A stretch of 64,000 bases of DNA from Flammeovirga sp. SJP92. Its GTDB lineage: Bacteria; Bacteroidota; Bacteroidia; Cytophagales; Flammeovirgaceae. Positions 36,997 through 62,514 of the stretch are shown piece after piece (position 1 is the stretch's first letter; each line of letters opens with the position of its first letter). Location: positions 124,001 to 188,000 of the forward strand of contig NZ_LQAQ01000063.1 of assembly GCF_001583495.1 (NCBI RefSeq), written 5' to 3'. A program made the translations under genes and the position numbers. Under the pieces are notes generated by a model. It was not told the DNA's origin, made no database searches, and saw only the letters and a program-made list of their open reading frames with translations.

Positions 36997-38580
36997 CTAA
37001 ATTACATTATCTGAATACTTACCGTTAAGCTTTCTATAGAGTTGTAAAGGATTATCGTTTTTCAGTGTGTCTGGCAATAGTGCGTCTGGAATATTCTGAT
37101 AGGCAACAAACCTTGCAAAACGAACGATCGCTTCTCCTCCTACACTTGTTGCCCACCCAATAGATGAAGCTGGATATGGTCCTCCATGTTGCATAGATGG
37201 ATTCACATCAACACCTGTTGGGTAACCATTGAAAATGATTCTGCCTACTTTTAATTCCAAAAGGCTGATCAGTTTAGAAGACAAATCATCATCACCGTCG
37301 GAATGTATAGTGGCTGTCAGTTGCCCTTCAAGATGTTTTGCCAAACGAAGCATATCTTTCTCACATTCTACTTCAACCACTAGAGTCACTGGTCCAAAAA
37401 TTTCTTCATGGAGTGATTTGTCATTGATAAAATGATCTATTGTCGTTTTGAATAAGGCATTAGGAGGTGTTTTTTCATTTTCGTTCCATTCCACCTCATT
37501 GACCCATTCCACATTAGGGTTACTTTTCAATCTCACTAATCCATGATAGTAAGCAGAAAGAATTCCCTTGTTCAGCATTACCCCTCTGCTATTATCATTC
37601 AATTGAGAGGAAAGTCCTTTGATCAGTTCATCATCCGCCAATGTCACAATCAAACCTGGGTTGGTACAGAACTGCCCAACACCTAAGCAAACAGAAGTTG
37701 AAAGCCCTGCAATCAATTCTTGCTTCTTATTTTCTAATGCTTTCTTACCAATAAAAACGGGGTTGATACTTCCCATTTCAGCATAAACTGGAATAGGATC
37801 AGGACGAGAAGCTGCAATGTCCATTAAAGCTTTTCCACCTTTAAATGAACCTGTAAAACCGACCGCTTGAGTTGCTGGATGTTGTACAAGCTTTGCCCCA
37901 AGATCATTGCCTACACCTTGCAACAATGAGAATACACCATTGGGCATATTGGTTTTCAAAGCGGCAACTGCAACGGCTTGTGCAAATAATTCAGAAGTTT
38001 CCGGGTGAGATGGATGTCCTTTTACCACTACAGGGTTTCCTGCCGCTAATGCAGACGCTGTATCTCCACCTAAAGAACCAAATGCAAATGGGAAGTTGGA
38101 GGCTCCAAAAACAACCACTGGCCCGATGGGACGCATCATACGTCTGATATCTGGCTTAGGTACTGGCTGACGGTCAGGAATTGCTGTATCAATACTCGGC
38201 TGTGTCCATTGCCCTGCTTCAGCGATACTGGCAAACGCTCTGATCTGTCCACACGTTCTTCCTCTTTCGCCCGTTAATCTTGGAATTCCCAATCCACTTT
38301 CTCTGTGTCCTACTTCTAAAAGTGTATCTCCTAAAGCTTCAATTTCATCAGCAATTGCATTTAAAAACAATGCGATTTCTTTTCCGCTTAGATTTCTATA
38401 TTCTTCAAAGGCATCTTGTGCCTTAAGCATTGCTAATTCAATTTCTTTCTCTTCTGAAGTATAAAAGTTACCCGTTGATTCAGAGGTCACTGGGTTAATA
38501 GAAGAGAACTTTTCTCCAGAAGGTTTCAACCAAACACCTCCTATGTAAGAGCTTCCCGAAATAGTTTTTTCTTTAATCAT
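36997..38580 (-). CDS. Alpha-ketoglutarate semialdehyde dehydrogenase (2,5-dioxovalerate dehydrogenase)
   Basis: A 527-residue NADP-type aldehyde dehydrogenase of the KGSADH length class. Key sites are the cofactor segment VVVFGASNFPFAFGSLGGDTASALAAGNPVVVKGHPSHPET, the FTGSFKGGKAL loop, the general-base region YAEMGSINPVFIG (Glu) and the catalytic Cys in CLGVGQFCTNPGL. These match enzymes that oxidise 2-oxoglutarate semialdehyde to 2-oxoglutarate, the last step of non-phosphorylative pentose or glucarate breakdown. Its ATG overlaps the upstream GH43 stop by 8 bases. With the FAH dehydratase, lactonase and SDR upstream, it completes the end of a Weimberg-type route. Confidence 0.9.
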   Translation of the reverse strand: MIKEKTISGSSYIGGVWLKPSGEKFSSINPVTSESTGNFYTSEEKEIELAMLKAQDAFEEYRNLSGKEIALFLNAIADEIEALGDTLLEVGHRESGLGIPRLTGERGRTCGQIRAFASIAEAGQWTQPSIDTAIPDRQPVPKPDIRRMMRPIGPVVVFGASNFPFAFGSLGGDTASALAAGNPVVVKGHPSHPETSELFAQAVAVAALKTNMPNGVFSLLQGVGNDLGAKLVQHPATQAVGFTGSFKGGKALMDIAASRPDPIPVYAEMGSINPVFIGKKALENKKQELIAGLSTSVCLGVGQFCTNPGLIVTLADDELIKGLSSQLNDNSRGVMLNKGILSAYYHGLVRLKSNPNVEWVNEVEWNENEKTPPNALFKTTIDHFINDKSLHEEIFGPVTLVVEVECEKDMLRLAKHLEGQLTATIHSDGDDDLSSKLISLLELKVGRIIFNGYPTGVDVNPSMQHGGPYPASSIGWATSVGGEAIVRFARFVAYQNIPDALLPDTLKNDNPLQLYRKLNGKYSDNVI

Positions 38581-40189
38581 GAGTCAATTCTTTATAGCTG
38601 AAATATTCAAAATCGGCGTGCTGTCTTCTGCCTGATAAATCTTGACAGCAAACACCTACAAACGCTCCTGTAAATGCTGCTCTGTAGCGTACATTCTCAT
38701 CTCTTACGTACTCATCTGATAGAATACTTCCATCCAAAACAGGCCCTACTTTTATCCACTCGCCTTCTTTTACGGCATAGTAGAATTGTAATTGAGCACC
38801 ATTGTAATCCATTTTCATCCACACTTTTTCTGCGTCTGAAACATCAATGGGTTCAATTGGTTCTTGCTGATCATACTTATCACAAGTGATGATGTACAAT
38901 TCTTTTTTGGTGCCATCATCATTTCCCATTATATGTAAGTAGTGATAATGGAATGTATTATAATAGGCTACCAATCCTGCCATTTGCTGGAATGAAACAG
39001 GATCAAATTCTACACACGTTTCCGCTACAACATGATGTTCCTGTACTCTATGAGCTACTAATGATTGTCTGAAAACTGAACTTAATGATTCTCTGCCGTA
39101 CAATCTCAAATAGCCTTCTCTATCATTTTGAGTAATCCAATCTTCCGTCATAGGTACTCTTAAGGCATGAAGATGGATGTCCAATGGCTGATCTGGCGCA
39201 AAAGTAATTTTCTCTACCTTAGACTTTGGTTTGTGTTCTGGAAGTTGAGGAGCTTCTACTTCTTTTCTTGGTACATTATTATCCCCCACTTTATATAACC
39301 AATCATCTTCTCTCCATTCGAATTTTTCAATGGCTGATTCTCTACCTGTAATGCATCTTCCTCTTTCTGTCAAAGGTCTTCCTACTAAGAACACACCGTA
39401 CCACTCTCCATTTTGTGTTTCTACAAACTGACCATGACCTGATCTTTGTAAGTAGTTTTGAGGAGTATCTTTACAGGTAATGATTGGGTTTTGAGGATGA
39501 ACTTCGTAAGGCCCAAATAAGCTTTTTGATCTAGCTAAAGTCATGGCATGGTTAAATTCCGTTCCCCCTTCAGCAGTCAACAAATAATAGTAGCCATTTT
39601 TCTTAAAAATGTGTGGTCCTTCTGTTCCTCCTAGTTCTGTTCCTGGGAAGATATAATGGATATCACCTATTAATTTCTGCTCTTCTTCTGAATATTCTTG
39701 TAATACAATTCCACCAAAAAACTTACGTTTACGGTGATCCATAATCATATTGACTAACCATATTTTTCCGTCATCATCATGGAAGAATGATGAGTCAAAT
39801 CCACTTGAATTCAAATACACTGGCTCTGACCATGGTCCCATGATATCTTTTGCTGTCACTACATAGTTAGGGGTATCTTTCCATGTTGCACCATCAAAAC
39901 TCAAGACATTGGTATACAACAAATAGTAAGTTTCATTGTGCTCATTGTAGCTTAAACAAGGCGCCCAAACTCCACCTGAATCAGGCACACCTCTCATGTC
40001 TAACTGTGATGTTCTATCTAATGGTCTTGTGATCAATTCCCAATTCACCAAATCTTTGGAATGGTGAATTTGATATCCTGGAAACCACTCAAACGTTGAT
40101 GTTGCTATATAATAATCATCCCCTCTTCTTAGAATACTTGGATCTGGATTGAACCCTCTAAGAATGGGATTTTGAATCATTTTTGTCAT
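38573..40189 (-). CDS. GH43 glycosidase (beta-xylosidase/arabinofuranosidase type)
   Basis: I chose the ATG at 40189 (MTKMIQNPILRGFNPDPSI), which follows AAAGAAGAA. The longer ORF reads into a REP-like element. The 538-residue protein has a five-blade propeller GH43 domain: base Asp in GFNPDPSILRRG, pKa-setting Asp in GFDSSFFHDDDGKIWL and acid Glu in GTELGGTEGPHIFKKNGYYYLL. A C-terminal beta-sandwich (~340-538) is typical of GH43 xylosidases. No signal peptide is seen, so it probably acts in the cytoplasm or periplasm on short xylo-oligosaccharides and supplies pentose to the pathway encoded around it. Confidence 0.92.
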   Translation of the reverse strand: MTKMIQNPILRGFNPDPSILRRGDDYYIATSTFEWFPGYQIHHSKDLVNWELITRPLDRTSQLDMRGVPDSGGVWAPCLSYNEHNETYYLLYTNVLSFDGATWKDTPNYVVTAKDIMGPWSEPVYLNSSGFDSSFFHDDDGKIWLVNMIMDHRKRKFFGGIVLQEYSEEEQKLIGDIHYIFPGTELGGTEGPHIFKKNGYYYLLTAEGGTEFNHAMTLARSKSLFGPYEVHPQNPIITCKDTPQNYLQRSGHGQFVETQNGEWYGVFLVGRPLTERGRCITGRESAIEKFEWREDDWLYKVGDNNVPRKEVEAPQLPEHKPKSKVEKITFAPDQPLDIHLHALRVPMTEDWITQNDREGYLRLYGRESLSSVFRQSLVAHRVQEHHVVAETCVEFDPVSFQQMAGLVAYYNTFHYHYLHIMGNDDGTKKELYIITCDKYDQQEPIEPIDVSDAEKVWMKMDYNGAQLQFYYAVKEGEWIKVGPVLDGSILSDEYVRDENVRYRAAFTGAFVGVCCQDLSGRRQHADFEYFSYKELTHD

Positions 40190-40239
40190 TTCTTCTTTTA
40201 TTAAAATATGAATATTTTTTGTAGGTTGACACATAAGGC

Positions 40240-40261
40240 GGGTCGACACGTAGGTCGACCC
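40240..40261. repeat. REP-like hairpin overlapping the end of the hydroxyacid dehydrogenase gene
   Basis: GGGTCGAC / GTCGACCC arms around ACGTAG, followed by CTACA. The stop codon of the dehydrogenase gene lies in that CTACA tail. It has the same stem-then-CTACA layout as the other elements, but a different stem sequence. Confidence 0.6.
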
Positions 40262-41212
40262 CTACACCACCTGGCATCGCAGTGCTTCCCCATTTAATGT
40301 ACGCTCCACTTCTTCTGCAGCATAGCGTTGTAATCTTCTTACACTTGCTTCGCTATAATATGAAATATGAGGCGTCATCAGAATATTTTTTGCAGTTCTC
40401 AATGGATGATCTCCTTCCATCGGTTCTGCTTCAAAAACATCGATTCCTGCATTGGCAATTTCTCCTTGATTCAATGCATCCGCTAGCTCTTTTGTATGAA
40501 TCAATGCTCCTCTTGAAGTATTAATCAAAGTTGCTGTAGGCTTCATTTTTGACAACCTTTCCTGATTGATCAAATGATGTGTCTCAGGTGTGTGAGGTAA
40601 ATGCAGCGAAAGAATATCAGCCATTTTAATTGCTTCTTCTAATTCCACTTTCTGAACATTCATACCTGATAAAACAGCCTGTGATACATAAGGATCATAT
40701 GCATAACATTTGAAGCCAAAAGCCTGCATTCGTTTTATCGTTTCTCTTCCGATACGTCCTGCACCCAATACTACAAAGTTCATATCTGAAAAAGATTTCA
40801 GTGTGGTAGGCGTAGAGGCAGGCCATTGATTTCCTATAATAGAGTTATGCCAAAAAGGAAGTTGTCTACCTAGTGAAACGGCTAATGATGCTGCATGGTC
40901 TGCAACTTCTGCAATACCATAATCTGGAACATTACACACTGCTATTCCATATTTTTTTGCCGCTTCTAAATCAATATTATCCACCCCTATTCCATACCTC
41001 ACTATCACTTTAGCGTTGTTTAACTGAGAAAGGATTCTATCTGAATAAATACCGTATTGTACCAAAAGGGCATCTGCGTCTTTTGCTACTTCTATTATTT
41101 TATCTTCTTCTTTATGTTGATAGATCTCAAGGTTGAATCCTGCTCTATCACATACTTTTTTTTCTTCTTCAAAGGCTCCTGCAAAATTGCAGTCTGAGAT
41201 TACTACTTTCAT
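40262..41212 (-). CDS. D-2-hydroxyacid dehydrogenase (C-terminal-binding-protein-like)
   Basis: The ATG at 41212 (MKVVISDCNFAGAFEEEKKV) gives a 316-residue protein of normal family length; the longer ORF reads into a hairpin element. The Rossmann motif is VVLGAGRIGRETIKRMQAFG. The catalytic residues appear as LINTSRGALIHT (Arg), DVFEAEPMEGDHPL (Glu) and MTPHISYYSEAS (His). Such enzymes reduce 2-oxo acids, for example glyoxylate or hydroxypyruvate. It has no defined step in the Weimberg route, and both ends abut REP-like hairpins. Its place in the operon hints at a side reaction on a pathway keto-acid. Confidence 0.85.
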   Translation of the reverse strand: MKVVISDCNFAGAFEEEKKVCDRAGFNLEIYQHKEEDKIIEVAKDADALLVQYGIYSDRILSQLNNAKVIVRYGIGVDNIDLEAAKKYGIAVCNVPDYGIAEVADHAASLAVSLGRQLPFWHNSIIGNQWPASTPTTLKSFSDMNFVVLGAGRIGRETIKRMQAFGFKCYAYDPYVSQAVLSGMNVQKVELEEAIKMADILSLHLPHTPETHHLINQERLSKMKPTATLINTSRGALIHTKELADALNQGEIANAGIDVFEAEPMEGDHPLRTAKNILMTPHISYYSEASVRRLQRYAAEEVERTLNGEALRCQVV

Positions 41213-41232
41213 CTTGTTTGATTTATTAGTAA

Positions 41233-41272
41233 ATGTGGTTCGCATGGACGTTGTAATACAACGACACTACAT
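41233..41272. repeat. REP-like hairpin element
   Basis: Head TGTGGTTCGCATGGA, palindrome CGTTGTA-A-TACAACG at 41249-41263, tail CACTACA. It lies 20 bases upstream of the hydroxyacid dehydrogenase start and probably falls in its leader. It is a clear relative of 41328-41348. Confidence 0.7.
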
Positions 41273-41303
41273 ATTTTAGAGTGATGAAGGAAAGTGGCCC
41301 GTC

Positions 41304-41436
41304 AAGTGGTTTTTATGGTGGTTCGGCGGACGTTGCAATGCAACGTCCCTACAACGGTATCCATCATAAAGGATATTCTACCATAAATTGAAAGGAGACT
41401 GTAGGGATGTCCACTGAAACACAACAAGAACCATTT
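41304..41436. repeat. Inverted pair of REP-like elements
   Basis: The left copy has a 21-base head (41304-41324), identical to the one at 62818-62838, then a perfect 10-bp stem hairpin GGACGTTGCA-A-TGCAACGTCC (41328-41348) and CCTACA. The right copy is inverted: CTGTAGGGATGTCC at about 41399 and CAAGAACCA near 41425-41433, with a decayed hairpin. The pair sits in the 256-base gap between the FAH and hydroxyacid dehydrogenase genes. Confidence 0.7.
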
Positions 41437-41468
41437 TTTCTACATTCTTAATTCTTCATTAAAAACCC

Positions 41469-42641
41469 TTACGCCGTCAATACTCCTCTTTTGGTCAGGT
41501 TTTTCATCAATTCTGAAATACCAAAAGTCCATCTTGGTGCCTTGTTGGTATGATTTACCGTATTGGTAAGCATCCCCAGCTTTGCGGAAGAAATAGAAAC
41601 TACATCACCTACTTTGTGAGTGAAACCATTGCCTTTGTCTCCTCTGTCTTTAGTAGGAGCAAATAATGTCCCTGTGAAAAGTGCGAAGCCATCAGGGTAT
41701 TGGTGGTTGTCACTGAAAGTCTGCCCTACTAGATCCAACACATCTCTACTGATCTGCGTCATATCACTTTTATCATCCAGAATAAACCCGTCTTCTTTTC
41801 CTTGTACTAGCACTCTCACTTCTGCCTTACGTACATCTTCTATCGAAAATGAATCATCGAAAATGCGTATAAAAGGACCGATAGCACATGATGCATTATT
41901 GTCTTTGGCTTTCCCCAAAAGTAAAGCACTTCTTCCTTCTATATCTCTTAGGTTTACATCATTACCTAATGTGGCTCCGATCACATCTCCGTTGCCATTT
42001 ACAGCCAATACAATTTCCGGTTCAGGATTATTCCATTCTGAAATCGGCAAGATTCCAATTTCTGCACCTACACCCACTGAAGACATTGGCTGTGCTTTAG
42101 TGAATACTTCTGCATAAGGCCCAATCCCTACTTCCATATATTGTGACCACATTCCTTCTGCCTGCAATACTTCTTTCAGATCTTCTGAAGCTTTAGAACC
42201 CGGTACAATTTCACGTACATCTCCGCCAATTTTATCATTGATCATTCCTCTTAGCTCATCCGCTTTTGAAGCATCTCCTCCTGCTCTTTCTTCAATCACT
42301 CTTTCCAGCATTGAAACCATGAAAGTTACACCACATGCTTTGATCGCTTGAATATCAAAAGGGGAAATAAAATGAGTTTTGTCCACACTCCCTTCAAGAG
42401 CATTCTCCATCAATTCCTCATAACTTCCCAGTTTCTCCAATAAAGAAACATCTATTGTACTTAAATCAATATTGAGATTGAATAGATCAGAGGTAGTAGG
42501 TGCCAATGTTGTCAAATTGTATACTCCTTCTTCTTTGATGATAACAGGAGCAGGTCCCGTTTCAACGCCAACCATCCAAACTCTTCCTATTAATGTACCT
42601 TCAAACTGATCTGCAGGTAAGTATTGTTTCAAATCACTCAT
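41469..42641 (-). CDS. FAH-family 2-keto-3-deoxy-pentonate dehydratase (XylX-like)
   Basis: A 390-residue protein with a C-terminal fumarylacetoacetate hydrolase fold. The N-terminal cap (GRVWMVGVETGPAPVIIKEE, LAPTTSDLFNL) and total length match Caulobacter-type XylX, which dehydrates 2-keto-3-deoxy-D-xylonate to 2-oxoglutarate semialdehyde. FAH-type residues include GAEIGILPISEWNNPEPEIVLAV (Glu metal ligands), ATLGNDVNLRDIEGRSALLLGKAKD (Asp) and LFTGTLFAPTKDRGDKGNGFTH. The KGSADH gene in the same operon supports the dehydratase role. A diketo-acid hydrolase, as in the rhamnose pathway, is the alternative. It starts 16 bases after the lactonase stop. Confidence 0.85.
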   Translation of the reverse strand: MSDLKQYLPADQFEGTLIGRVWMVGVETGPAPVIIKEEGVYNLTTLAPTTSDLFNLNIDLSTIDVSLLEKLGSYEELMENALEGSVDKTHFISPFDIQAIKACGVTFMVSMLERVIEERAGGDASKADELRGMINDKIGGDVREIVPGSKASEDLKEVLQAEGMWSQYMEVGIGPYAEVFTKAQPMSSVGVGAEIGILPISEWNNPEPEIVLAVNGNGDVIGATLGNDVNLRDIEGRSALLLGKAKDNNASCAIGPFIRIFDDSFSIEDVRKAEVRVLVQGKEDGFILDDKSDMTQISRDVLDLVGQTFSDNHQYPDGFALFTGTLFAPTKDRGDKGNGFTHKVGDVVSISSAKLGMLTNTVNHTNKAPRWTFGISELMKNLTKRGVLTA

Positions 42642-42657
42642 TGTATTGTTTGTTTTT

Positions 42658-43548
42658 TTAATATTGAACTAATGATGTTGGAAGCCCTTTTACGCCAGGC
42701 TTAAAAGCGAATAGACTTCCTGCTAGAGGAAATTCTTGTTTGTCTTCATCTGTCATCAGGTACCTTGCGGTTGTGATGTATAAAGTGTCAAGATGCTCTC
42801 CTCCAAACGTACAGCTTGTAATATTTGGCACTGGCATTTCATACACTTCCAGCACCTCTCCTTGTGGTGATAATTTTGTGATTCTTGCTCCCGCAAAAGA
42901 ACATTGCCATAGATTGCCATCAGCATCTACAGTGAGTCCATCAGGATAACCTTCGGGATCATTGAGCTGGTATAAAACTCTTTTATTTTTAATGCTTTCA
43001 CCGTCAATATCATAAGCATAAATAACCCTTTTAATAGTATCATTATGATAGAGCGTCTTTCCATCAGGACTAAATGCAGGACCGTTAGTAATGATGTAAT
43101 CACTGTCTAAATGTGCTACTTTCCCATCTGCTCCTAACCTGTATAAACTTCCTGACGCTTTCTTCTCCTTTTCATCCATTGACCCTGCCCAAAAGTTGCC
43201 GTAAGTATCTACCTTTCCGTCATTAAATCTGTTTTCCGGTAGATGTTCCTCCAACGACTGAATCATTTTATAATCATCGTTTTCAAAGTCAATGAAAGCA
43301 AAACCATCTCGAACGGTACCGATAAAACCTCCCTTATCTCTAAATGCCAGACTTGTCAACTCAAAACTCAGTTGCCATGACTTTTTAGATTGATTGAAAG
43401 TTGAGTAACGGTGTACTTTTTTTTCTACAATGTCCAGCCAATAAATTGCCTGTTCATGCTCTACCCAAAGCGGTCCTTCTCCAAGTGTAGCAGGAATCTC
43501 CCAAAGGCATTCCAACGACTCTATTTTTCTATTAATTACTACCTGCAT
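42658..43548 (-). CDS. SMP-30/gluconolactonase-family sugar lactonase
   Basis: A 296-residue six-bladed propeller hydrolase. Divalent-metal ligands are visible: Glu in TLGEGPLWVEHEQAIYWLDI, Asn in DYIITNGPAFSPDGKTLYHND and Asp in GYPDGLTVDADGNLWQC, with RFNDGKVDTYGNFWAGSMD between. The enzyme hydrolyses a sugar 1,4-lactone; here the likely substrate is xylono- or arabinono-lactone from the adjacent dehydrogenase. Its ATG lies inside the end of the SDR gene (17-base overlap), preceded by GGAGAAG, which argues for translational coupling. Confidence 0.92.
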   Translation of the reverse strand: MQVVINRKIESLECLWEIPATLGEGPLWVEHEQAIYWLDIVEKKVHRYSTFNQSKKSWQLSFELTSLAFRDKGGFIGTVRDGFAFIDFENDDYKMIQSLEEHLPENRFNDGKVDTYGNFWAGSMDEKEKKASGSLYRLGADGKVAHLDSDYIITNGPAFSPDGKTLYHNDTIKRVIYAYDIDGESIKNKRVLYQLNDPEGYPDGLTVDADGNLWQCSFAGARITKLSPQGEVLEVYEMPVPNITSCTFGGEHLDTLYITTARYLMTDEDKQEFPLAGSLFAFKPGVKGLPTSLVQY

Positions 43549-44332
43549 ACTCTGCGTCTTCTCCTATTCCTTCACCACCTAACCCTAAATAACCGCCATC
43601 AACTGGCAGATCTGTCCCAGTGATAAAGCTTGCCTCATCACTGCATAAAAACATGCATGCACTTGCCACTTCTTCAGGTTGACCACATCTTCTCATCATG
43701 TGATATTTACCCCAAATCGGTTCATATTTCTCTTGATCATATCCGGCAGCTTTTAAAACTTCTCGAGTCCAAATCCAACCCGGACTCACTGAGTTGACAC
43801 GAATACCCATCGGAGCAAGATCCAATGCAGTACATTTTGTCAATTGATTCACCGCACCTTTAGCGGCATTATAAGTCCATCTTCCAGGCTGAGCGATATG
43901 TGCTGAAATACTTGAAATGTTGACAATGGCACCTTTACCTTGCTGTTCCATTAGTTTACTGACTTCCTGCGTCATCTTCGCAAAACCTATTGGTCCCACT
44001 TCCAGAGAGCGTTGCCATTCGTTTCTCGTTGCCTCTAAACCTGCAGCAATAAACGAGAAGGCATTGTTGATCAGAAAGTCTATACCACCCATTTTTTCAA
44101 TGGCAAACGCAACTTGTTCTTCACAAAACTTCTCATCCAACATATCTCCATGGATAAAATAAATGTCACCACCTTTAGCCTTCAGCTCTTCTACTGTGGC
44201 CAAACCTGTTTCATTATCTATATCTGAAATCACCACCGAACACCCATAAGAAAGAAATGCTTCCACACATGCCCTTCCTATTCCTTGTGCTCCTCCAGTG
44301 ACTAATGCTCTTTTACCTTGTAATCCTCTCAT
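43532..44332 (-). CDS. Short-chain dehydrogenase, probable pentose 1-dehydrogenase
   Basis: A 266-residue classical SDR. Coenzyme motif ALVTGGAQGIGRACVEAFLS (TGxxxGxG), Asp in VVISDIDNETG suggesting NAD+, structural NNAFS, catalytic Ser in IVNISSISAH, Tyr and Lys in RWTYNAAKGAVNQL. RVNSVSPGWIWT follows. It overlaps the lactonase gene and precedes the keto-deoxy acid dehydratase gene, so oxidation of D-xylose or L-arabinose to the lactone is the best inference. SDR substrate range cannot be read from motifs alone. Confidence 0.9.
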   Translation of the reverse strand: MRGLQGKRALVTGGAQGIGRACVEAFLSYGCSVVISDIDNETGLATVEELKAKGGDIYFIHGDMLDEKFCEEQVAFAIEKMGGIDFLINNAFSFIAAGLEATRNEWQRSLEVGPIGFAKMTQEVSKLMEQQGKGAIVNISSISAHIAQPGRWTYNAAKGAVNQLTKCTALDLAPMGIRVNSVSPGWIWTREVLKAAGYDQEKYEPIWGKYHMMRRCGQPEEVASACMFLCSDEASFITGTDLPVDGGYLGLGGEGIGEDAEYAGSN

Positions 44333-44351
44333 AATAGTAGCTCTAAAAAAT

Positions 44352-46040
44352 TTATAATACGCCCACTTTCTTCGTCAGCTTATTTTGATTATTATCTTGA
44401 ATATTGACGATATAAATACCTTTGGTCAATGCTGTTATTTTCACTTCAGTTTGATTGGTGTTTTGTTGAAAAACAACTCTTCCTTCCAAATCATATAACT
44501 GTATCAATCGCTGTGAGTGATCAGAGAAAACAATATCAATTTGTCCTGTATTCTGATTTTTAAATTGTACCACAAGCTCCTTTTCCAAACTGCTGATGAC
44601 ATCCTCTTCTGATGGGTCTCTTTCATCACCAACCGTTACATTAAATGTCTCAGAGTGCAACACCTTATCTTCTTTTATTACAGAAAGACTCGCTTTATAC
44701 TTATCGACTGGAATATTCAATTCAGAAAAAATAATCTCTTCCTTAAATGACTGTACTGTGGACGACTGAATAGTGTAAATCTTTTGGTACACTTCCTTCT
44801 CCTCATCCATTACCAGCAATTGCACTTGATATTCTTTTTCAAGAGGCTGGAAAGTGGAGAAATTAATTCTGTTCAAAGAAGGTTGTTCCAAATCCAATGC
44901 AAAATGTTTATCGATGTAATCAACATGACTTAACCCCACTGACGGCATATAAGTCTCTGTCCATTCCAATCGCTCATAAGCAGCCATTTTATAATCCTTA
45001 AAAAACTGATGTGATAATCCTGACCATAATTCAACATTAGGCCTTTCATAAGCATAAAAATCACTGACATCAACGTTCTCTCCTGGCTCTCCCCATGCCC
45101 AGAACTTCAATCCGGGAGTGAGTGATTGATCGTTTGAAATTCTAAAAAGTCCTTCTTCGTTATCATGGTTGATCACACCATAAAAATCTTTCTTGAAGCT
45201 AGGGTAAGCATAAGCGATGCCTTGCTCTTCCCAATTTTTGAGTAATGGTAAATTTGTATATTCTTGTACTCTCGGTCCATTCGAAACAAGTTTATCTATA
45301 CTCGTTAACCAATTTCCGGGACTCCATCCTACTTCATATTGATCAATGGGGACAATCATTTCTGAATTAAATGAAGTCCTAGGATTTTCAACTGTAGAAC
45401 CTGGAGCAAAAGTGACGCATGTCCAATATTCCAAATTATTATCTACTGCAAGATTTTCCAGTCGTACATTGACCTCAAAATTTGACGCTCCTTCTCTAAG
45501 AATTACATCAAAGTAACAGGTCACATTCGTTACTCCATTGTTGTACTGTGGAGGATGCTGAGGATTATCTAAATTATCTTGTATCCACATTGACAATCTC
45601 ACTCCATCACTCAGTACTTCAGGTGCTTTTTGGTTCCATGGAACACACCAATATTTCCCATGTTCGGGCTCTGGGAAAGTTGGAAAAACACCTGCGTACT
45701 GCATGAGCCAGTCATGATAAAAAATATTGTCCCCTATCAAATAAGGAACTCCTAATTCATTGGTATAAAGTTGCTCATGACCAGTAGGTTTGTAGATAAA
45801 AGAGACTACTCTAGCCCCAAATTCAGGCACGACTGTAATTTTCACCAATTCATTTTCCAGTACAATTCCTTTAAATTCCCTTTCAACAATTTCAGTTGTA
45901 GAAAAAGAAGCTATACTGTAATGCTCATCTAAAGTATAATCATAATGCTGCCACACAAGGGTGGTATCTCGCACCTGCACCTGAGCGAAAGCATAGGTAT
46001 GAAGTATAAAAAATAAGAGTATTAGTAGATGTCTTTTCAT
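44352..46040 (-). CDS. DUF5107-type exported protein with T9SS sorting domain
   Basis: The ATG at 46040 (MKRHLLILLFFILHTYAFAQ) gives a signal peptide; the ORF begins 8 codons earlier. The 562-residue protein has an N-terminal beta-rich domain resembling the galactose-mutarotase-like DUF5107 group (VKITVVPEFGARVVSFIYKP, GDNIFYHDWLMQYAGVFPTFP, RLSMWIQDN, WAWGEPGENVDVSDFY). A beta-sandwich and a T9SS type A sorting domain (~490-562, VVFQQNTNQTEVKITALTKG) close it. It is the first gene of the pentose-oxidation operon, 19 bases before the SDR gene. A surface carbohydrate-processing role is inferred; catalytic residues are not known to me. Confidence 0.8.
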   Translation of the reverse strand: MKRHLLILLFFILHTYAFAQVQVRDTTLVWQHYDYTLDEHYSIASFSTTEIVEREFKGIVLENELVKITVVPEFGARVVSFIYKPTGHEQLYTNELGVPYLIGDNIFYHDWLMQYAGVFPTFPEPEHGKYWCVPWNQKAPEVLSDGVRLSMWIQDNLDNPQHPPQYNNGVTNVTCYFDVILREGASNFEVNVRLENLAVDNNLEYWTCVTFAPGSTVENPRTSFNSEMIVPIDQYEVGWSPGNWLTSIDKLVSNGPRVQEYTNLPLLKNWEEQGIAYAYPSFKKDFYGVINHDNEEGLFRISNDQSLTPGLKFWAWGEPGENVDVSDFYAYERPNVELWSGLSHQFFKDYKMAAYERLEWTETYMPSVGLSHVDYIDKHFALDLEQPSLNRINFSTFQPLEKEYQVQLLVMDEEKEVYQKIYTIQSSTVQSFKEEIIFSELNIPVDKYKASLSVIKEDKVLHSETFNVTVGDERDPSEEDVISSLEKELVVQFKNQNTGQIDIVFSDHSQRLIQLYDLEGRVVFQQNTNQTEVKITALTKGIYIVNIQDNNQNKLTKKVGVL

Positions 46041-46314
46041 TTCATTCCTTTTGTTTGTTATCATAATTTAGGTGACTCCAAACATGAAAGGCAATAGGTG
46101 AGTAGTGATGACGTAGTGATTAAAGTAGTAAAAAGTTAGTTCATGGCGTTAAACCGTTCATTTGACGTATATTAATCCTCTTTTTTGAAAATATTTCTTT
46201 ACTTCAAACACTTCACTAATGAGTATGCATAAAAAATGTACTACAATTGATAATTATTATATTATTAAGCCTTGAGATTACCACTCATTAACGAATGGTC
46301 GCCTGATATATCAC

Positions 46315-47150: not shown

Positions 47151-48458
47151 TTAATGAATCGCTACTCTCTGAGTTAAAGTATTTGCAGTACCGACTACAT
47201 GAAAAACATAGATTCCTTGGTGCAGTGAAGGTGGTAATTGGAAAGTCGTTGTTCCTCCTGATGTAGTAATTGTTTCTACTAATTGACCTTGGGAAGTATA
47301 GATTAAAATCTCATTTATATTACCCAAATCAACATTTTTTACTGTGAAATAATTCTCTTTAATGGGATTGGGAAAAATAATACTTTCAGACTGTTCTGAT
47401 AAACTCGAAAGATTTCTTTGTCTTGCTCCTGATGTGTTTCCAAAACCGATAACGCCATTGCAATGCATCCATTCACTGTATTGGCCTCCACAAGTATTAT
47501 TCTGCCAAACTGCAGTATTGTAAGATTGTTGTTCTGCTTGCTTACGGCTTCCATTGATTTCTACCCAATCTACTTGCACATCTCTGCCGTTAGTATCATT
47601 GAAGTATTCTACATTAACACCACCTGAAGAGTTAGTATTGACAGTATAAATCTTGAAGTTATTGGTCAGTGACAAGGTTTGTATTGTTTGATTGTCAATT
47701 CTAACATTCAACTTCTCTTGACCACTGATTCCTTTCGCTCTTACTTTGATGGTATTAGAGTTTCCACTTCCGCCACTGTTTCCATTACTTGTGCCCATGG
47801 TCATGCTGTACACATCACAAGTACCACTGCTTTGATAGCCTTCTACAGTAAAAGATACTTCATATAAATTCCCCATATTCATTCCTAATGAAGCCCATGC
47901 ATTGAAGTGATTAGCACATGTCACTGTACCGCTTGTCTTTTTCGACCTTCGAACACTCCAGTATTGCTGAAATGTCTTGGTACCTTGAATCGAAGGTTGT
48001 TGAACTCGGGTCGTTTCATAAATATCATAAGTGCCACCATCAGTTGTTACAGTACCTTTTGGTGTTCCTCCTGGTGGGCGCCAGCTTCCCCAGCTTTCTA
48101 CAATATAATATTCCACTAATGGACTTGTTGTCCAGCCATAAACACACAAATACGAATTACCAGAAGGTTGGTAATTGGCCCCATAAGTCACTGTTTGATT
48201 TTTCACTCCAGGACGCTTCCCTTTTCTTGCTAAAAGGTTGCCGATGTTATTCCAAGAGACATAGAAGTTACCTCCATTATTGAGAGTCATACACCCATTC
48301 CCTGAGTCTTTCCAATATTCGTAAGTGTAGCCTCCTTGATTGCCGATTTGATTGTTGCAAATGGTTTGGGCATTTGTGTGAGATGAGAAAGTAACAACAC
48401 ACAAAAGTGGAAGGAGAAATACACTCATCATAGAGCATAAGTTTAGTAATTTTTTCAT
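47151..48458 (-). CDS. GH11 endo-1,4-beta-xylanase with C-terminal CBM and T9SS sorting domain
   Basis: A 435-residue secreted enzyme. Signal peptide is cut near TNAQ. The GH11 jelly-roll (~33-225) has [20 protein letters not shown] (nucleophile Glu in PLVEYY) and [16 protein letters not shown] (acid/base Glu). A glycine/serine linker follows, then a CBM36/CBM60-like calcium-type xylan-binding module ([36 protein letters not shown], ~235-300). A T9SS type A domain ends the protein ([14 protein letters not shown]...LTQRVAIH). It cuts internal xylan bonds outside the cell. It is separated from the upstream GH8 gene by a large stem-loop. Confidence 0.93.
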
Positions 48459-48485
48459 TGTAATTAAGTTTTCATTTCATAATTG

Positions 48486-48549
48486 ATCAAGAGCCCAATA
48501 GATATGGGGAGTATTAAGACAATGAGATAGCGTGAATTGGGCTCTTGAT
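48486..48549. repeat. Perfect 14-bp inverted repeat between GH8 and GH11 genes
   Basis: ATCAAGAGCCCAAT (48486-48499) and ATTGGGCTCTTGAT (48536-48549) can pair around a 36-base loop. Neither side has a T run, so it may be a processing or attenuation structure rather than a terminator. Confidence 0.65.
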
Positions 48550-48583
48550 TTGTAAAAGATTGTTGTCTTAATACCTTTTAGTA

Positions 48584-51500
48584 TTACTGAATTATTAGTT
48601 TTCTTATTTGATTCAATCCATCAGACTGCACCTGCACAACATAGGTTCCTCTTTTAAAACCTTGAGTACTTATTTTCTGCAAACCAGAGGTAAGTTCTGA
48701 TGTAAAGACCTTTACGCCACTGATGGTGTAGATGCTGATTTGTACAGATTGATCCCCCATTCCTTTTACCGTAAAATAGCTTTGGGCAGGGTTAGGATAT
48801 AAAGTCATTTCTGAATGTAAACTTTCTTTTGAGGCTACATTTTTAGAGGCTGTCCTTGCATTAGAGCAAGAAGGAGCTGTTGATGAATTGCTGAAATAAA
48901 TGGTATGTGTTCCGGTTTTAGAAAGTAAGACTACGTTAGTACCCTCTTTCCCTATCCAATATTCTCCATCTAATCCATTAAAGCCACTGTTTGTAAAAGT
49001 GATAGAAGGTGATGCACTTCCTAAAGTATGCGTAATCGATCCTTTTAGGTCCACGTACCAATTGGGTACTCCATTATTCGTTCTCATAGAGAAATCCCAT
49101 ATTTGATTGCCTTCTTTTGACCAATTCACTGAAATATTATTGACTTGAGATAAATCAGGGCCATTTCCTAATACATGTGCATGTGTAAAACTCGTGTTAG
49201 TTGTAGGAAAAGCGGATGTACTTGGTAAACCAAATGAGCAACTAGGGGTATTGCCTCCACCGTTATCACCGCCATTATTTCCTTCTGCTGTGATGACTAA
49301 ATTTCCAAGGTTGAATCCTCCTGCATCAAAGGCAACTCTCATAATTTGTTGCCCTGCCGTTAGATTCACTTCTGAAACCGTGACATTCGTAAATGTACCC
49401 CAATCTCCTGTAGATGGCACTGCTAATAATCCTGTCTGATCCACTCCTTTGAATTCAATATGGAATTTCCCATTGGCATTAACAGAAGCGACTTCAGCTG
49501 AGATGGAATACGAGCCTGCATTGGCTACATTTACGGTAAATTCAAGCCATTCTCCATTAGCAATCCAACCCACATTTCCACCGTTTGTTCTACTCTCCGT
49601 ATCCACATCTGTATCCTGACGGTCACCATTTCCATTATTCCCAACTCCTGTGTCGTGGTAAGCTACTCCTTCTCCTCCATTATCAAAAGTTGTCGCGTTA
49701 ATTATTCCCGGGATAGCTTGTGGACTTCCTAAATAAGGAGTTTGTTCTGTTACAGGTATAGACGTTACAGTCACTGAAGTTTGATCCGTAAAACCACCGT
49801 CTGCTGTAGTTACTGTAATGGTTGAAGTGCCTTCTGCTATAGCTTGTACTCTTCCTGATGTAGAAACTGTTGCTACATTGGGATTTGAAGAAGTATAAGA
49901 AACGGCTTTATTATCTGCATTGGTAGGTAATACTGCAACACTAAGGTTCGATGCCTCTCCTTCTTGAATGGAAAGTGTTGAAGGCGTTAAAGTCACTCCT
50001 GTTACCGGAATTGGGTCTACAGGAGGTGGAGTTGATCCATCCACATAAGCTTTGAAATTTCCTGATAGATGCAATAAGCACATCATTTGTAATAGCCCAT
50101 CGTAATAACGGTATCTTCCTGTGGTAGGAGCTCTATCCCATAAGGCATTGATGAATTCCCATGCTTTGGCATCAGTAGAGGCTAAGGCAGTCATGGCATT
50201 ACAAGCGACCAATCCTACTGCTTGATAATTTGTGCCCGGTAATGGATTTCCATTTAAAGTATATCCACTAGAGTAACTGTAAATTCCTTCACTGTAGAAA
50301 AAGTCTTGGATATTATCAGTGATTACTTTTTCACGTTCATCTTTTTTGAACCATGCATAATCCATCGCTACATTCATTGCACAGCGCCAAGCATCCACCA
50401 CAAAATCTTCTTTATGACCTCCGGTTGGTGATCCATCATAATTGGAATAGTCAGGCATCAAACCAGTAGTGGGGTGAGCGGCCGATTGAAAGAAATCACG
50501 TGCAACATCAGCGGCATCTTTCCAATATTGCTGATTGGTGTTGGCCATAATTCCCCATACTTCATAAAAGGATGGTAAGAAATAAGAAGGGTCTGTATAC
50601 GTGGAGGCATTAGCATAAGGAACAAAACACACTTTTTTCTCCTCATTAAACATATTCGGAACGGAGCCTATGATTTGATTATGAGGCCACCCTTTATTCA
50701 TGATTTGCTCTAAAATATAATCTGCTTCAGCACGGTAATTATAAATTCCTCCTCTATCCCCAAAACGAACGGAAGCAAAATACAACGCGGTTACGAAGTA
50801 GATTTCACCGTCAGATGCAGTATTGGGATCTAGCTCATTGCCACTTGCATCCACAATCCAACGAAAATAACCTTCACGATTACCTGGGCCATGTTGCATG
50901 TGTGTTTTAGCAAATTTCCACATGCGGTCAAACTCCTCTTGTTTATTCATCTGTACTGCGATCATCATACCATATGACATTCCTTCTGATCGCACATCAT
51001 TATTGTCTATATCAAGAATATAAGCTTCATCTGTTCCTTTAGGGTAATACACTCTTTCAGTGGCATCATCACCGTAGAATAATTGCTGGTAGATATCGTT
51101 TATTTTAGTATCAATCTGCTGTTGTGTATACCCTGCCTCCTTGAACATATTTCTGTAGTTTCCTGTATAAAATGCTCCTTGAGATGGTAAGACAGGAGGA
51201 GCAGGTGGTGGTGGAATATCTCCCGTTCTCAAAAAAGAAATCCAATCTAAAATAGTGTCATTGGAGCCATCATCCGTTATTAAAACCAATGTAATTGTTC
51301 TGTTTCCTGGATTGCCTTCGATCTTAACAGACTTGGTTTGTGTGGTTGCTGAAGTACCCGAGAAAGAAAAAGAAGTGACTTCAACACCATCAATTTCTAG
51401 GCTTACTCCTGCTGCACTGCTATTTGTGGAAGCCCCTCTGACTGCAATGTCAAATAATCCGGGAGCATCAGAAAAATTAATGGTCGTTGATCCTTTATCA

Positions 51501-51733
51501 TCATTGGCATAAAGAATAATTCCATTAAAAGGGGTTGTGGTTGTACCTGCATAGGCCCCACCCAAGGTTAATGTTTCCGCTTGGATTTTGATTTCTGCAT
51601 TGTTGATAACGGCACTACCTTCTACCCTCAGTTGGAATAGCATAACCGTTATCAAAGAAATTAATTTAATAAAGTTGAGTGATACAAAGGATAAAGCTTT
51701 AAAGCTCGTCCTTTTGTTGTAATAGTTTTTCAT
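48584..51733 (-). CDS. T9SS-secreted GH8 exo-oligoxylanase (reducing-end type) with CBM modules
   Basis: A 1049-residue protein. After a signal segment, a CBM6/35-like module (~45-168, IKIQAETLTLGGAYA) precedes the GH8 domain (~185-565): GAFYTGNYRNMFKEAGYTQ, the acid Glu in RSEGMSYGMMIAVQM, base Asp in ASDGEIYFVTALYFAS. This closely follows the reducing-end xylose-releasing exo-oligoxylanases (Rex), not cellulases. A Big_2 domain (~575-660), a second CBM6-like module (~665-815) and an unrecognised ~120-residue domain (~825-960) follow. A T9SS tail closes the protein. A cell-surface site is unusual for an oligoxylanase of this type. Confidence 0.9.
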   Translation of the reverse strand: MKNYYNKRTSFKALSFVSLNFIKLISLITVMLFQLRVEGSAVINNAEIKIQAETLTLGGAYAGTTTTPFNGIILYANDDKGSTTINFSDAPGLFDIAVRGASTNSSAAGVSLEIDGVEVTSFSFSGTSATTQTKSVKIEGNPGNRTITLVLITDDGSNDTILDWISFLRTGDIPPPPAPPVLPSQGAFYTGNYRNMFKEAGYTQQQIDTKINDIYQQLFYGDDATERVYYPKGTDEAYILDIDNNDVRSEGMSYGMMIAVQMNKQEEFDRMWKFAKTHMQHGPGNREGYFRWIVDASGNELDPNTASDGEIYFVTALYFASVRFGDRGGIYNYRAEADYILEQIMNKGWPHNQIIGSVPNMFNEEKKVCFVPYANASTYTDPSYFLPSFYEVWGIMANTNQQYWKDAADVARDFFQSAAHPTTGLMPDYSNYDGSPTGGHKEDFVVDAWRCAMNVAMDYAWFKKDEREKVITDNIQDFFYSEGIYSYSSGYTLNGNPLPGTNYQAVGLVACNAMTALASTDAKAWEFINALWDRAPTTGRYRYYDGLLQMMCLLHLSGNFKAYVDGSTPPPVDPIPVTGVTLTPSTLSIQEGEASNLSVAVLPTNADNKAVSYTSSNPNVATVSTSGRVQAIAEGTSTITVTTADGGFTDQTSVTVTSIPVTEQTPYLGSPQAIPGIINATTFDNGGEGVAYHDTGVGNNGNGDRQDTDVDTESRTNGGNVGWIANGEWLEFTVNVANAGSYSISAEVASVNANGKFHIEFKGVDQTGLLAVPSTGDWGTFTNVTVSEVNLTAGQQIMRVAFDAGGFNLGNLVITAEGNNGGDNGGGNTPSCSFGLPSTSAFPTTNTSFTHAHVLGNGPDLSQVNNISVNWSKEGNQIWDFSMRTNNGVPNWYVDLKGSITHTLGSASPSITFTNSGFNGLDGEYWIGKEGTNVVLLSKTGTHTIYFSNSSTAPSCSNARTASKNVASKESLHSEMTLYPNPAQSYFTVKGMGDQSVQISIYTISGVKVFTSELTSGLQKISTQGFKRGTYVVQVQSDGLNQIRKLIIQ

Positions 51734-51824
51734 TTCAATAAGTGTGTTGATTTAGTTAGCACTCTTTCTCTTTGCTTATGAGGTAGCCGGAACAACATAG
51801 AAAGTAGAAGAGTTAATTCATTTC

Positions 51825-51995
51825 ATCGAAGCTATTGTTCAATTAAAATAGGAAGTTTTGGATTATCTTTTTGAGCCTATTCTACGTTAGAATATCATCT
51901 CGTAGCTATAGCTATGCTCTTCTATTCTGCCTTGAATAGACTCAAAAATATTAATCCAATCTATCCCAATTTTAAATGCTCAACAGCTTAAGAGA
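51825..51995. repeat. Long imperfect inverted repeat upstream of the GH8 gene
   Basis: Arms of about 80 bases are centred on TAGCTATAGCTA. Left arm segments TTTTTGAGCCTATTC and TTGGATTA recur as the reverse complement of the right arm (TTTTTGAGTCTATTC, TTGGATTA). Outer parts also match more loosely (GAAGCTATTG, TTAAAAT). It fills much of the 618-base gap 51734-52351, which has no ORF. A further small inverted repeat, ATGAAGCA / TGCTTCAT, lies at 52068-52103. Confidence 0.6.
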
Positions 51996-52301
51996 TATCT
52001 CGTTGAAAGTAAAACTATGCTAATGAAGAATTATAAAATATAAAATTAGGGTCAAAAAATATCAAAAATGAAGCAGTAGAGATGTTGCATTACAGTGCTT
52101 CATTTCTTGTATACGTCTAAAATTACTAAAGTAATAGTTATGGCATACAGATGTTAGAATGCTGTAATTGTAAAGTTGGTTGATGTGTTTTTAAAGGGGA
52201 AATTATTAAACTGTTTACCCATAAATGAAATTATGGGTCTAAGTTTATAAGCCTTCCCAATAACCTATATCAAAATTTAAGTATTAAATCTAGAAACAAA
52301 A

Positions 52302-52328
52302 AAAGCACATCAAATTGACATGCTTTTC
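52302..52328 (-). terminator. Terminator of the downstream GH43 gene
   Basis: AAAAGCA / TGCTTTT short stem, with T-rich DNA following on the minus strand, 24 bases after the GH43 stop. Confidence 0.5.
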
Positions 52329-52351
52329 GAAATGAAATATTAAACTATCCG

Positions 52352-53332
52352 TTACATTTGACCGTCGATTGTTGAAATTGTCCCGTCACTATTATAATCT
52401 ATTTCGATAAATTTGACGCTTCGCAACCATGTTTTTCCACCTGAAGGTTTGCTGTCGTGATAAAACAGATACCACTTATCATTAAATTCTACGATGGAAT
52501 GATGTGTAGTCCATCCTACTACAGGAGTTAAAATCACACCTTTGTACTGAAATGGTCCGTATGGAGAGTCACCTACTGCATAACAGATTTGATGTGTGTT
52601 TCCTGTAGAATAAGAGAAGTAATATTTGCCGTTGTATTTATGCATCCAAGGTCCTTCAAAATACCTTCTATCATGATCTCCTGCTTTTAAAGGCTCACCG
52701 TTTTCATCCAAAATCACTAGATCTTTTGGTTCCTCCGCGAAGCCTTTCATATCAGCTGTCAGTTTCACAACTTTTGGACATAAAGCATCTTCATGATCTG
52801 CAGGTTCTTGCCCTACTTCTATAGCTTTATTGTCTCTGTATCGTTGTAATTGTCCACCCCAAATACCACCAAAATACATATAATAATCTTCATCATTGTC
52901 TTGCAATACGGCAGGGTCAATGCTATAGCTTCCATCCATTGGAGTGGCTTCTGGAATAAAAGGGCCTTCAGGTTTGTCACTGATGGCAACGCCCATTCTG
53001 AAAATATCATTCTTATCCTTCATCGGAAAATATAAATAGTACTTTCCATTTTTCTCTGCAGCATCGGGTGCCCACATTTGTCGCCCAGCCCAAGGAATAT
53101 CTTCTAGTTTTAAAACACAACCATGATCCTTTACTTCACCATCTATTTCATCCATTGAAAAGACATGGTAATCTTGCATATTAAAGTGGTCTCCATTGTC
53201 ATTTTCGGGAACACCTGACTCTATATCATGCGAAGGATAGATGTATAATTTTCCATTAAAAACATGTGCAGAAGGGTCTGCGGAGTAAATATGATCTGCT
53301 ATATATTTTGGTTTATTTTGTACTAATTCCAT
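52352..53332 (-). CDS. GH43 glycosidase (xylosidase/arabinofuranosidase), cytoplasmic type
   Basis: A 326-residue single-domain propeller enzyme without signal peptide. The base Asp is in YSADPSAHVFNGKLYIYPSHD, the pKa-modulating Asp in GSYSIDPAVLQDNDEDYYMYF and the acid Glu in RRYFEGPWMHKYNGKYYF. The late strand VVGWTTHHSIVEFNDKWYLFYHDS carries the conserved histidine. It lacks the beta-sandwich of the GH43 at 38573, so the two are different subfamilies. It lies 16 bases after the symporter gene, suggesting cotranscription and cleavage of imported xylo-oligosaccharides. Confidence 0.92.
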   Translation of the reverse strand: MELVQNKPKYIADHIYSADPSAHVFNGKLYIYPSHDIESGVPENDNGDHFNMQDYHVFSMDEIDGEVKDHGCVLKLEDIPWAGRQMWAPDAAEKNGKYYLYFPMKDKNDIFRMGVAISDKPEGPFIPEATPMDGSYSIDPAVLQDNDEDYYMYFGGIWGGQLQRYRDNKAIEVGQEPADHEDALCPKVVKLTADMKGFAEEPKDLVILDENGEPLKAGDHDRRYFEGPWMHKYNGKYYFSYSTGNTHQICYAVGDSPYGPFQYKGVILTPVVGWTTHHSIVEFNDKWYLFYHDSKPSGGKTWLRSVKFIEIDYNSDGTISTIDGQM

Positions 53333-53348
53333 TGTATTTCTATTTGAA

Positions 53349-54872
53349 TTAATTTATTGAAACATCTTCTAATTCTAATGCACTTGCTGATTGTTGTAAT
53401 TGTCTTCGTTCTAAAAGGTCAGACTGAATTTTAATGTTAAAGTCTTTCGTAATCACATAAAAAATAAGAGAGATAACAGACACCATAAAAGTAGTCGCAG
53501 GTACTAATGAGGCCGTTAATCGGATTCCAAAAATTGCTTCTGTTGACTGCACTATATTGGGTTCGTAACCATAAACTGATACGATCCATCCACATAATGC
53601 TCCTCCTAATCCGAGTCCCGCTTTCAAGGCAAAAACAATCCCTGAGAACACAAACCCTGTCGCTCTTCTGTTGTATTTCCATTCTGAATAATCGGCTACG
53701 TCACCCATCATTGCCCATAAAAGTGGAATCGTTGGGGCATAGAAAAGAGATTTTAAAATATTTAAAGTGAATGCTAAACCTACGTTATCTTCTGGTACGA
53801 AAAAGAATAATCCGGTGAAAACGGCTGTCATAAATAGACATACAATAAATGTATTACGTTTTCCGAATCTCTTCGCTAATGGTGCTGATAATGTCAGTAC
53901 TCCTATGATGGTTACAAACTGACCGATCATATTGAAAAAGCTAAAACCTACGCTGAATGCATTACTCTTATCCGGCAATGCCAGCAATCCAAATGTTCCC
54001 ATTAGCTTTTGTAATAGAGAAGGATCACCGCTTGTATTTTGAATTAAATTGAATTGTTCGAGGAATGAAAAAATGGCTTCTGGTTTCATGTAATAGCTAA
54101 AGAAGTAATACATTCCTCCTCCCCACAATGATAAGGTAGTGAAAATGAAAAGCGTCACGATAAACATCGAGAACCAAGGTCCGTTTTTCTTCAAGTCATT
54201 AAAGTCTTGCTTGATGCTTGTCTTTTGTGATGGTGGTGGTGTGATTCTTTCTTTAGTAGATAGGAAAGTAATTACAAAAAACATAATTGCTACTAACGAA
54301 AATATACCTATTGTTATCGACCATCCTTTTTGATCATCACCTTGCCCAAACTTATCTACCAATGGTAAAGTAAAACCTTGCACCACCAATGAGGCGATCA
54401 TGGCCAATACAAATCTGACAGAACCAATATTTGTTCTTTCATTAATATCACTTGACATCACTCCATGCAATGCAGAATAAGGTGTATTGTTAAGGGAATA
54501 GATTGCCATCAGAAGCGTGTATGTGATACCTGCATAAATGACTTTATACCTTTCTGTAAGGTCAGGAGTGGTAAAAGCTAGAAAGAAAAATAAGCCAAAT
54601 GGAATGGCAGTCCAAAGCACCCAAGGTCTGTATTTTCCCCATTTAGTATTGGTCCTGTCAGACATAATTCCCACTACGGGATCTACAAAAGCATCAATCA
54701 CTCTTGCTAAAAGCAGTATGGTACCTGCGGCAGTGGCCTTTATGCCGAATACATCCGTATAAAAGCCCAATTGGAACACCAACATGATCTGGAATACAAA
54801 ATTCACGGAGCAATCACCAAGGCTGTAACCAATTTTCTCTTTTAAAGATACTTTTTGATCGTTCATTTTCAT
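53349..54872 (-). CDS. GPH-family (glycoside-pentoside-hexuronide) cation symporter
   Basis: I chose the ATG at 54872 (MKMNDQKVSLKEKIGYSLGD), because GPH proteins begin with such a KEKIGYSLGD segment; the ORF reads 35 codons further upstream. The ~507-residue protein has twelve predicted membrane helices. Family motifs include VIDAFVDPVVGIMSDRTNTKWGKYRPWVLW and IPLLWAMMGDVADYSEWKYNRRATGFVFSG. Xylosides (XynB-type transporters) and pentosides are typical substrates. The neighbouring GH43 and GH10 genes point to xylo-oligosaccharide import across the inner membrane. Confidence 0.92.
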   Translation of the reverse strand: MKMNDQKVSLKEKIGYSLGDCSVNFVFQIMLVFQLGFYTDVFGIKATAAGTILLLARVIDAFVDPVVGIMSDRTNTKWGKYRPWVLWTAIPFGLFFFLAFTTPDLTERYKVIYAGITYTLLMAIYSLNNTPYSALHGVMSSDINERTNIGSVRFVLAMIASLVVQGFTLPLVDKFGQGDDQKGWSITIGIFSLVAIMFFVITFLSTKERITPPPSQKTSIKQDFNDLKKNGPWFSMFIVTLFIFTTLSLWGGGMYYFFSYYMKPEAIFSFLEQFNLIQNTSGDPSLLQKLMGTFGLLALPDKSNAFSVGFSFFNMIGQFVTIIGVLTLSAPLAKRFGKRNTFIVCLFMTAVFTGLFFFVPEDNVGLAFTLNILKSLFYAPTIPLLWAMMGDVADYSEWKYNRRATGFVFSGIVFALKAGLGLGGALCGWIVSVYGYEPNIVQSTEAIFGIRLTASLVPATTFMVSVISLIFYVITKDFNIKIQSDLLERRQLQQSASALELEDVSIN

Positions 54873-55036
54873 TTTAAAAAATAGGGGTATGTTGTAGTAA
54901 GAAGAATAAGGGAAGAGTAGGATCATCTTTGTGATAGGAAGAGATAGATGATGATAATTGATAATGTTTTTGTTCATCGCACAATATCCCTCTTCATTCT
55001 TACCTCTTAACTCTTACCTCAATGTTTTTGTTAGGT

Positions 55037-55070
55037 GGAGAAAGTGGTACTACTATTCCCAGCTTTCTCC
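55037..55070 (-). terminator. Hairpin after the GH10 gene
   Basis: GGAGAAAG / CTTTCTCC stem with an 18-base loop, 13 bases after the GH10 stop. No T run follows, so it may only attenuate transcription into the symporter gene. Confidence 0.5.
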
Positions 55071-55082
55071 CCATTGCTAACT

Positions 55083-56432: not shown

Positions 56433-56461
56433 GATTCTATTATTTTCTAAGTTTGAAACAG

Positions 56462-56482
56462 TCCAGGGAATAGCTCCCTGGA
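56462..56482 (-). terminator. Small hairpin between the glycan-binding protein and GH10 genes
   Basis: Perfect TCCAGGGA / TCCCTGGA stem with loop ATAGC. It lies inside the operon, so it is probably an attenuator or an mRNA-stability element. Confidence 0.45.
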
Positions 56483-56498
56483 TTGTTTGTCTACACTA

Positions 56499-57722: not shown

Positions 57723-57755
57723 AGTTCATTCAATTTCAATTTGACAAGACACTAA

Positions 57756-59225: not shown

Positions 59226-59229
59226 GATT

Positions 59230-62304: not shown

Positions 62305-62514
62305 TTCATGTTCTATGTTAAATTCATCAGAAGCTGTATTTGTGGGTTTACAGAGAAACTTTCAAAATACAGTGAATAGTAAGAGTTAGCGCACATTAGA
62401 AGTCGAAATATTTTTAAGTAAAAGTCCTTTTCATTTTATTCATCAACTTTATAATAGTAAAAAAATATGCCTTCAATAGGCTTGTTAATTGTGTCGAAAC
62501 TGTTGGCTTATTTT

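Follow-up and report, generated by a model that had tools for sequence, protein, structure and literature searches.

Seven consecutive genes on the minus strand of Flammeovirga sp. SJP92, at 36997-46064 of the window (the whole stretch of 64,000 nucleotides that was analysed), contain four of the five enzyme classes of the Caulobacter xylXABCD operon. The fifth, a pentonate dehydratase of the IlvD/EDD or enolase type, was found neither in the operon, nor in the window, nor in the rest of the genome, except for an ilvD gene of the DHAD type. The same seven genes are present in identical order in four of nine Flammeovirga genomes, the carriers being marine species, with dN/dS values of 0.00-0.13 for all genes and all carrier pairs, so this gene set is not due to chance and the pathway must be in use. 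We read the operon as a functional, horizontally acquired module of the Weimberg type for which xylonate dehydration would be supplied in trans, an explanation that we hold with about even confidence.

For making chemicals from plant waste, the Weimberg pathway is favoured because it saves carbon, but it depends on a demanding iron-sulfur enzyme, the xylonate dehydratase. If an operon is kept under selection in four species without a xylonate dehydratase, either the housekeeping DHAD is enough or an alternative dehydratase exists; how the Flammeovirga cell dehydrates the sugar acid is thus a testable question. Each part of the operon is of a known kind. In the literature searched, we found no description of a conserved Weimberg-type combination without the dehydratase in Bacteroidota, and incidental mentions at most of the Weimberg or xylose oxidative pathway in this phylum (Bacteroidetes/Bacteroidota).

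Gene order and enzyme assignments

From 46064 to 36997, the operon reads DUF5107, SDR, SMP-30, FAH, 2HADH, GH43 and ALDH, all on the minus strand. An earlier note, made from the letters alone, had described a Weimberg-type row of seven genes including the SDR, SMP-30, FAH and ALDH proteins; the open reading frames are indeed found at this place and Pfam confirmed the families. The spacing is tight, with the exception of 223 bp between the FAH and 2HADH genes. The GC content of the SDR (43%), FAH (40%) and ALDH (41%) genes compared with ~38% in the surroundings is a weak signal of transfer.

The first gene (44352..46064) encodes a DUF5107 protein with a signal peptide and a T9SS sorting tail, and has an orthologue in all four carriers. 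Its reading frame extends to 46064, the probable start being that of the signal peptide (MKRHLLILL...) at 46040; the predicted structure is poor (pLDDT 41). The best solved-structure match of the SMP-30 family protein (42658..43548) is the Caulobacter xylonolactonase (7plb, E 3e-62), and the surroundings of the metal site are retained (GEGPLW at 23, TNGPAF at 154 and YPDGL at 201), as in a XylC-like pentonolactonase of the pathway. The FAH protein (41469..42641) shares 53-61% identity with XylX-type proteins and matches the 383-aa FAH structure 9kkt (E 3.5e-120). It resembles, more weakly, the structure of the Sulfolobus 2-keto-3-deoxy-arabinonate dehydratase, of which it retains the Mg ligands (E206, E208 and D227; PMC9795676) and the lysine (K245), and is the predicted 2-keto-3-deoxy-pentonate dehydratase of the pathway. 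For both of these predicted enzymes the assignment is shown by close relatives. We found no paper on the PDB structures 8eh2 and 9kkt.

The SDR oxidoreductase (43532..44332) is proposed to act as the xylose 1-dehydrogenase. With the XylB-type SDR of Niveispirillum it shares just 32% identity and, judged by sequence, it is not an XylB orthologue; its nearest plasmid relatives (47%) adjoin styrene/indole monooxygenases. For the ALDH (36997..38580), the family is certain from Pfam and the best structure matches are 3v4c and 1eyy. Its score is far under the curated KGSADH cut-off of NCBI, so we infer its role as the 2-oxoglutarate semialdehyde dehydrogenase (XylA in the Weimberg naming). The GH43 protein (38573..40249) carries a beta-xylosidase C-terminal domain, no signal peptide was seen in it, and it is most probably a cytoplasmic beta-xylosidase. 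This GH43, the best match of the lactonase and the adjoining xylan locus together suggest that the substrate is xylose.

The remaining gene encodes a PGDH/CtBP-like D-2-hydroxyacid dehydrogenase (2HADH; 40262..41245, start probably at 41212) of the Pfam family, with PGDH and CtBP as nearest structures and with the catalytic R-E-H residues readable in its sequence. Members of the CtBP-like clade were also seen in uncharacterised clusters with SDRs and an IclR regulator in two other genomes (L188 in G295 and L189 in G482), the cluster of L189 also holding an acetoacetate decarboxylase-like gene.

Synonymous divergence is uneven among neighbouring genes of the operon: dS in the same pair is 1.7 for the SDR, 0.4 for the FAH and 0.3 for the GH43 gene. 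Across 36997-46064 compared with the carrier loci L045 and L046, adjacent genes differ up to fivefold or more, which suggests gene-by-gene exchange by recombination between the species.

Neighbourhood, isomerase route and relatives of the operon

The tie to a xylan locus proposed in the earlier note was borne out. Upstream of the operon, an adjoining locus (47151..63994, minus strand) encodes GH11, GH8-CBM6, GH43, MFS_2 transporter, GH10, CBM4_9, SusD, SusC and response regulator-AraC proteins, the response regulator-AraC domain being cut by the end of the window. The operon is beside the xylan locus in three of the four carrier species. In the fourth, EKP202, the operon is not next to a xylan locus and no GH11 could be found; the association is therefore not strict. 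The xylan locus is also present (66-92% protein identity) in the non-carriers G118, G063 and G155, where the operon is absent. The operon is therefore an added module, and these sister species provide a natural control.

A YaaH family acetate transporter gene (46272-46940, plus strand) is kept beside the operon in all four carriers and could serve in the uptake of acetate from acetylated xylan; a strong hairpin terminator is found near it, at 46962-47003. Downstream of the operon lies a gene for a secreted alpha-amylase. One carrier alone, G104, has between its ALDH and amylase genes a PtuA-PtuB anti-phage pair of the Septu type (an AAA ATPase with an HNH protein, L045:6662-8690).

Xylose isomerase and xylulokinase had been noted as missing, which is correct for the window and wrong for the genome. 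In one operon, xylA stands in a row with genes for a sugar transporter, an FGGY kinase (xylB), and a transaldolase and a transketolase that were both identified by reading their sequence; xylA is present in seven of the nine genus genomes, including all four carriers. Any suggestion that the oxidative operon replaces the isomerase route is not supported; with a complete isomerase operon in the same genome, the oxidative module is additional. In these Bacteroidota, a module for pentose oxidation is found together with a xylan locus in genomes that have the isomerase route as well. The supposed rarity in this phylum stood: an XylX-type FAH (E below 1e-40) was detected in two of 396 evenly drawn Bacteroidota genomes, the one outside Flammeovirga having an FAH that stands alone.

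Like the Caulobacter crescentus xylXABCD operon, the Flammeovirga operon brings together the SDR, SMP-30 xylonolactonase, XylX-type FAH and semialdehyde dehydrogenase classes. In contrast to it, there is no XylD (IlvD/EDD), the SDR is not XylB-like, and GH43, 2HADH and secreted DUF5107 proteins are present. A phylogeny of 86 FAH proteins nests the Flammeovirga sequences in the Pseudomonadota, as sister to Paraglaciecola sp. 20A4 (98/90 support), and horizontal acquisition is the best reading of the origin of the operon. The Paraglaciecola operon (L095) has the order GH43-IlvD/EDD-FAH-ALDH-SMP30-MFS_2-2HADH. It has in common with the Flammeovirga locus the GH43, the FAH (61%), the ALDH (51%), the SMP30, the MFS_2 transporter and the 2HADH, but differs by its own IlvD/EDD protein, of the sugar-acid type with a C-terminal His, by the lack of an SDR in the operon, with a Gfo/Idh protein nearby, and by a 2HADH from another clade (29% to that of Flammeovirga). 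A Paracoccus plasmid cluster (L053, L054) similarly places an XylX-type FAH beside a 2HADH and an SDR, with an aldehyde dehydrogenase nearby and no dehydratase in the cluster. Unlike the Flammeovirga operon, it lacks the lactonase and GH43 and its FAH is from a different clade; it adjoins an FGGY kinase annotated xylB, rpiA and a sugar ABC transporter.

Outside Flammeovirga, 51 FAH loci have both flanks. An IlvD/EDD gene was found within 10 kb in 25 of them, and in all of the five that have FAH and SMP30 together with ALDH or SDR. Truncated Herbaspirillum loci and Dongia have the FAH, an SDR and a weak SMP30 with no dehydratase nearby, so a dehydratase encoded at another place would not be without parallel. 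The unusual point in Flammeovirga is that the entire genome lacks it.

Search for a pentonate dehydratase

Neither the operon nor the scanned proteins of the window yielded an IlvD/EDD or MR/MLE protein, and the search of the 8.5-Mb genome also placed none in the window. PF00920 detected a single protein in this genome and likewise a single one in each of the eight other genomes of the genus; as in SJP92, no IlvD/EDD beyond the single ilvD-type gene was found in the carriers G205, G104 and G131 (EKP202). The lack of a dehydratase that the earlier note had seen in the operon and window therefore extends to the genome and to three more species. The SJP92 ilvD adjoins a gene reading as a branched-chain aminotransferase, and its product scores 735 bits with the ilvD equivalog model, whose cut-off is 618 bits. 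It has an SGGT motif and ends in ...TDEF, not the SGTA motif and C-terminal His of the sugar-acid dehydratase branch (PMC9314677). By these features, this sole IlvD/EDD protein is most probably the branched-chain DHAD.

The MR_MLE_C search of the genome gave four full members, which have counterparts in carriers and non-carriers alike. Two match structure 5olc of Zobellia (E 2e-177), titled galactonate dehydratase in its record, which we take to be the 3,6-anhydro-D-galactonate cycloisomerase; one resembles the 3,6-anhydro-L-galactonate cycloisomerase and another is MenC-like. The enolase-superfamily proteins of this genome are thus predicted to be agar/carrageenan cycloisomerases and a MenC-like protein. 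Two of them (G000:C120 and G000:C35; L002, L003) are carrageenan-type cycloisomerases in paralogous clusters, each with a RhaT-like transporter and an aldehyde dehydrogenase. For all matches to known dehydratases elsewhere in the genome (IlvD/EDD, MR/MLE, UxaA and UxuA), another role is likely.

The 223-bp gap between FAH and 2HADH (41246..41468) was considered as a relic of a lost dehydratase. It holds only small repeats that differ between species: G205 and G104 have a different insert, and in EKP202 the two genes are hardly separated. This reading was therefore rejected. Two different kinds of short palindromic repeat occupy the same spot across the species (41300-41430 of the window; L043, L045).

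Proposed pathway and alternatives

In the pathway that we propose, the enzymes of the xylan locus would release xylo-oligosaccharides, which the cytoplasmic GH43 would cut to xylose. The SDR would oxidise xylose to xylonolactone and the SMP-30 protein would open this to xylonate. Xylonate would be converted in trans to 2-keto-3-deoxy-xylonate, from which the FAH protein would form 2-oxoglutarate semialdehyde and the ALDH 2-oxoglutarate. The likeliest known protein for the step in trans is the single DHAD of the cell (IlvD), the next candidate being a dehydratase from a family so far without a known connection to pentonates. In an assay at 50 °C, a DHAD of the IlvD class that comes from a different organism acts on D-xylonate at 0.36 U/mg compared with 12.9 U/mg for its own substrate, and requires the C2 (R) configuration, which xylonate has (PMC9314677). 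By analogy, a moonlighting DHAD would be chemically reasonable, but a rate of ~3% may be too slow for the carbon flux. Also counting against a Weimberg module are the SDR that is no XylB orthologue, the complete isomerase route in the same cell, the EKP202 operon that is not beside a xylan locus, and the 2HADH, which has no evident place in the scheme.

A complete oxidation of xylose through a pentonate dehydratase of a family that has never been connected with this reaction, or through a redox bypass using the 2HADH of the operon, is in our view rather unlikely. Rather doubtful, too, is the proposal that a new kind of dehydratase, possibly involving the 2HADH, acts on xylonate, so that the pathway would be complete and chemically or phylogenetically new. 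All of the usual families were searched and are missing or otherwise assigned, the 2HADH is under purifying selection, and the arrangement on the Paracoccus plasmids is similar. However, oxidation of xylonate at C2 would give 2-keto-xylonate, which keeps the C3 hydroxyl and from which, on chemical reasoning, elimination by the FAH protein would not yield the semialdehyde for the ALDH; direct substitution by the 2HADH is thus unlikely. Moreover, in Paraglaciecola a 2HADH occurs together with an IlvD/EDD protein, a 2HADH is near the FAH gene in only two of the 51 non-Flammeovirga loci with both flanks, and the Flammeovirga and Paracoccus 2HADH are merely 40% identical.

The operon might instead act on another compound, with the FAH protein using a different 2-keto-3-deoxy acid and the SDR a different alcohol, and no pentonate dehydratase would then be needed. 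The aromatic monooxygenases beside the SDR relatives and the diverse sugar or uncharacterised clusters in which relatives of the 2HADH occur would fit this. We find it unlikely, given the GH43 xylosidase within the operon, the lactonase closest to xylonolactonase, the IlvD/EDD dehydratase in the operon of the close relative Paraglaciecola, and the xylan locus adjoining in three of the four species.

Recruitment of an existing dehydratase for another sugar acid is highly improbable. The UxaA-type gene (G000:C37) is present in all four carriers, and two cycloisomerase-type copies come with a transporter and ALDH in SJP92 (G000). The UxaA-type gene adjoins an aldolase gene, though, and the C2/C3 configuration of altronate is opposite to that of xylonate; the enolase proteins (G000:C120, C35 and C119) match cycloisomerases and are shared with non-carriers; and UxuA, which adjoins an SDR gene, was discarded as it was not found in carrier G205. 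Finally, a broken pathway, stopping at xylonate or decaying, would explain the missing central enzyme beside an isomerase route, yet it is the least probable of all, since conservation of the FAH and ALDH genes, whose products act downstream of the missing step, is no weaker than that of the other operon genes (dN/dS 0.03-0.08), and since the one gap of the operon holds nothing but small repeats and has all but disappeared in EKP202.
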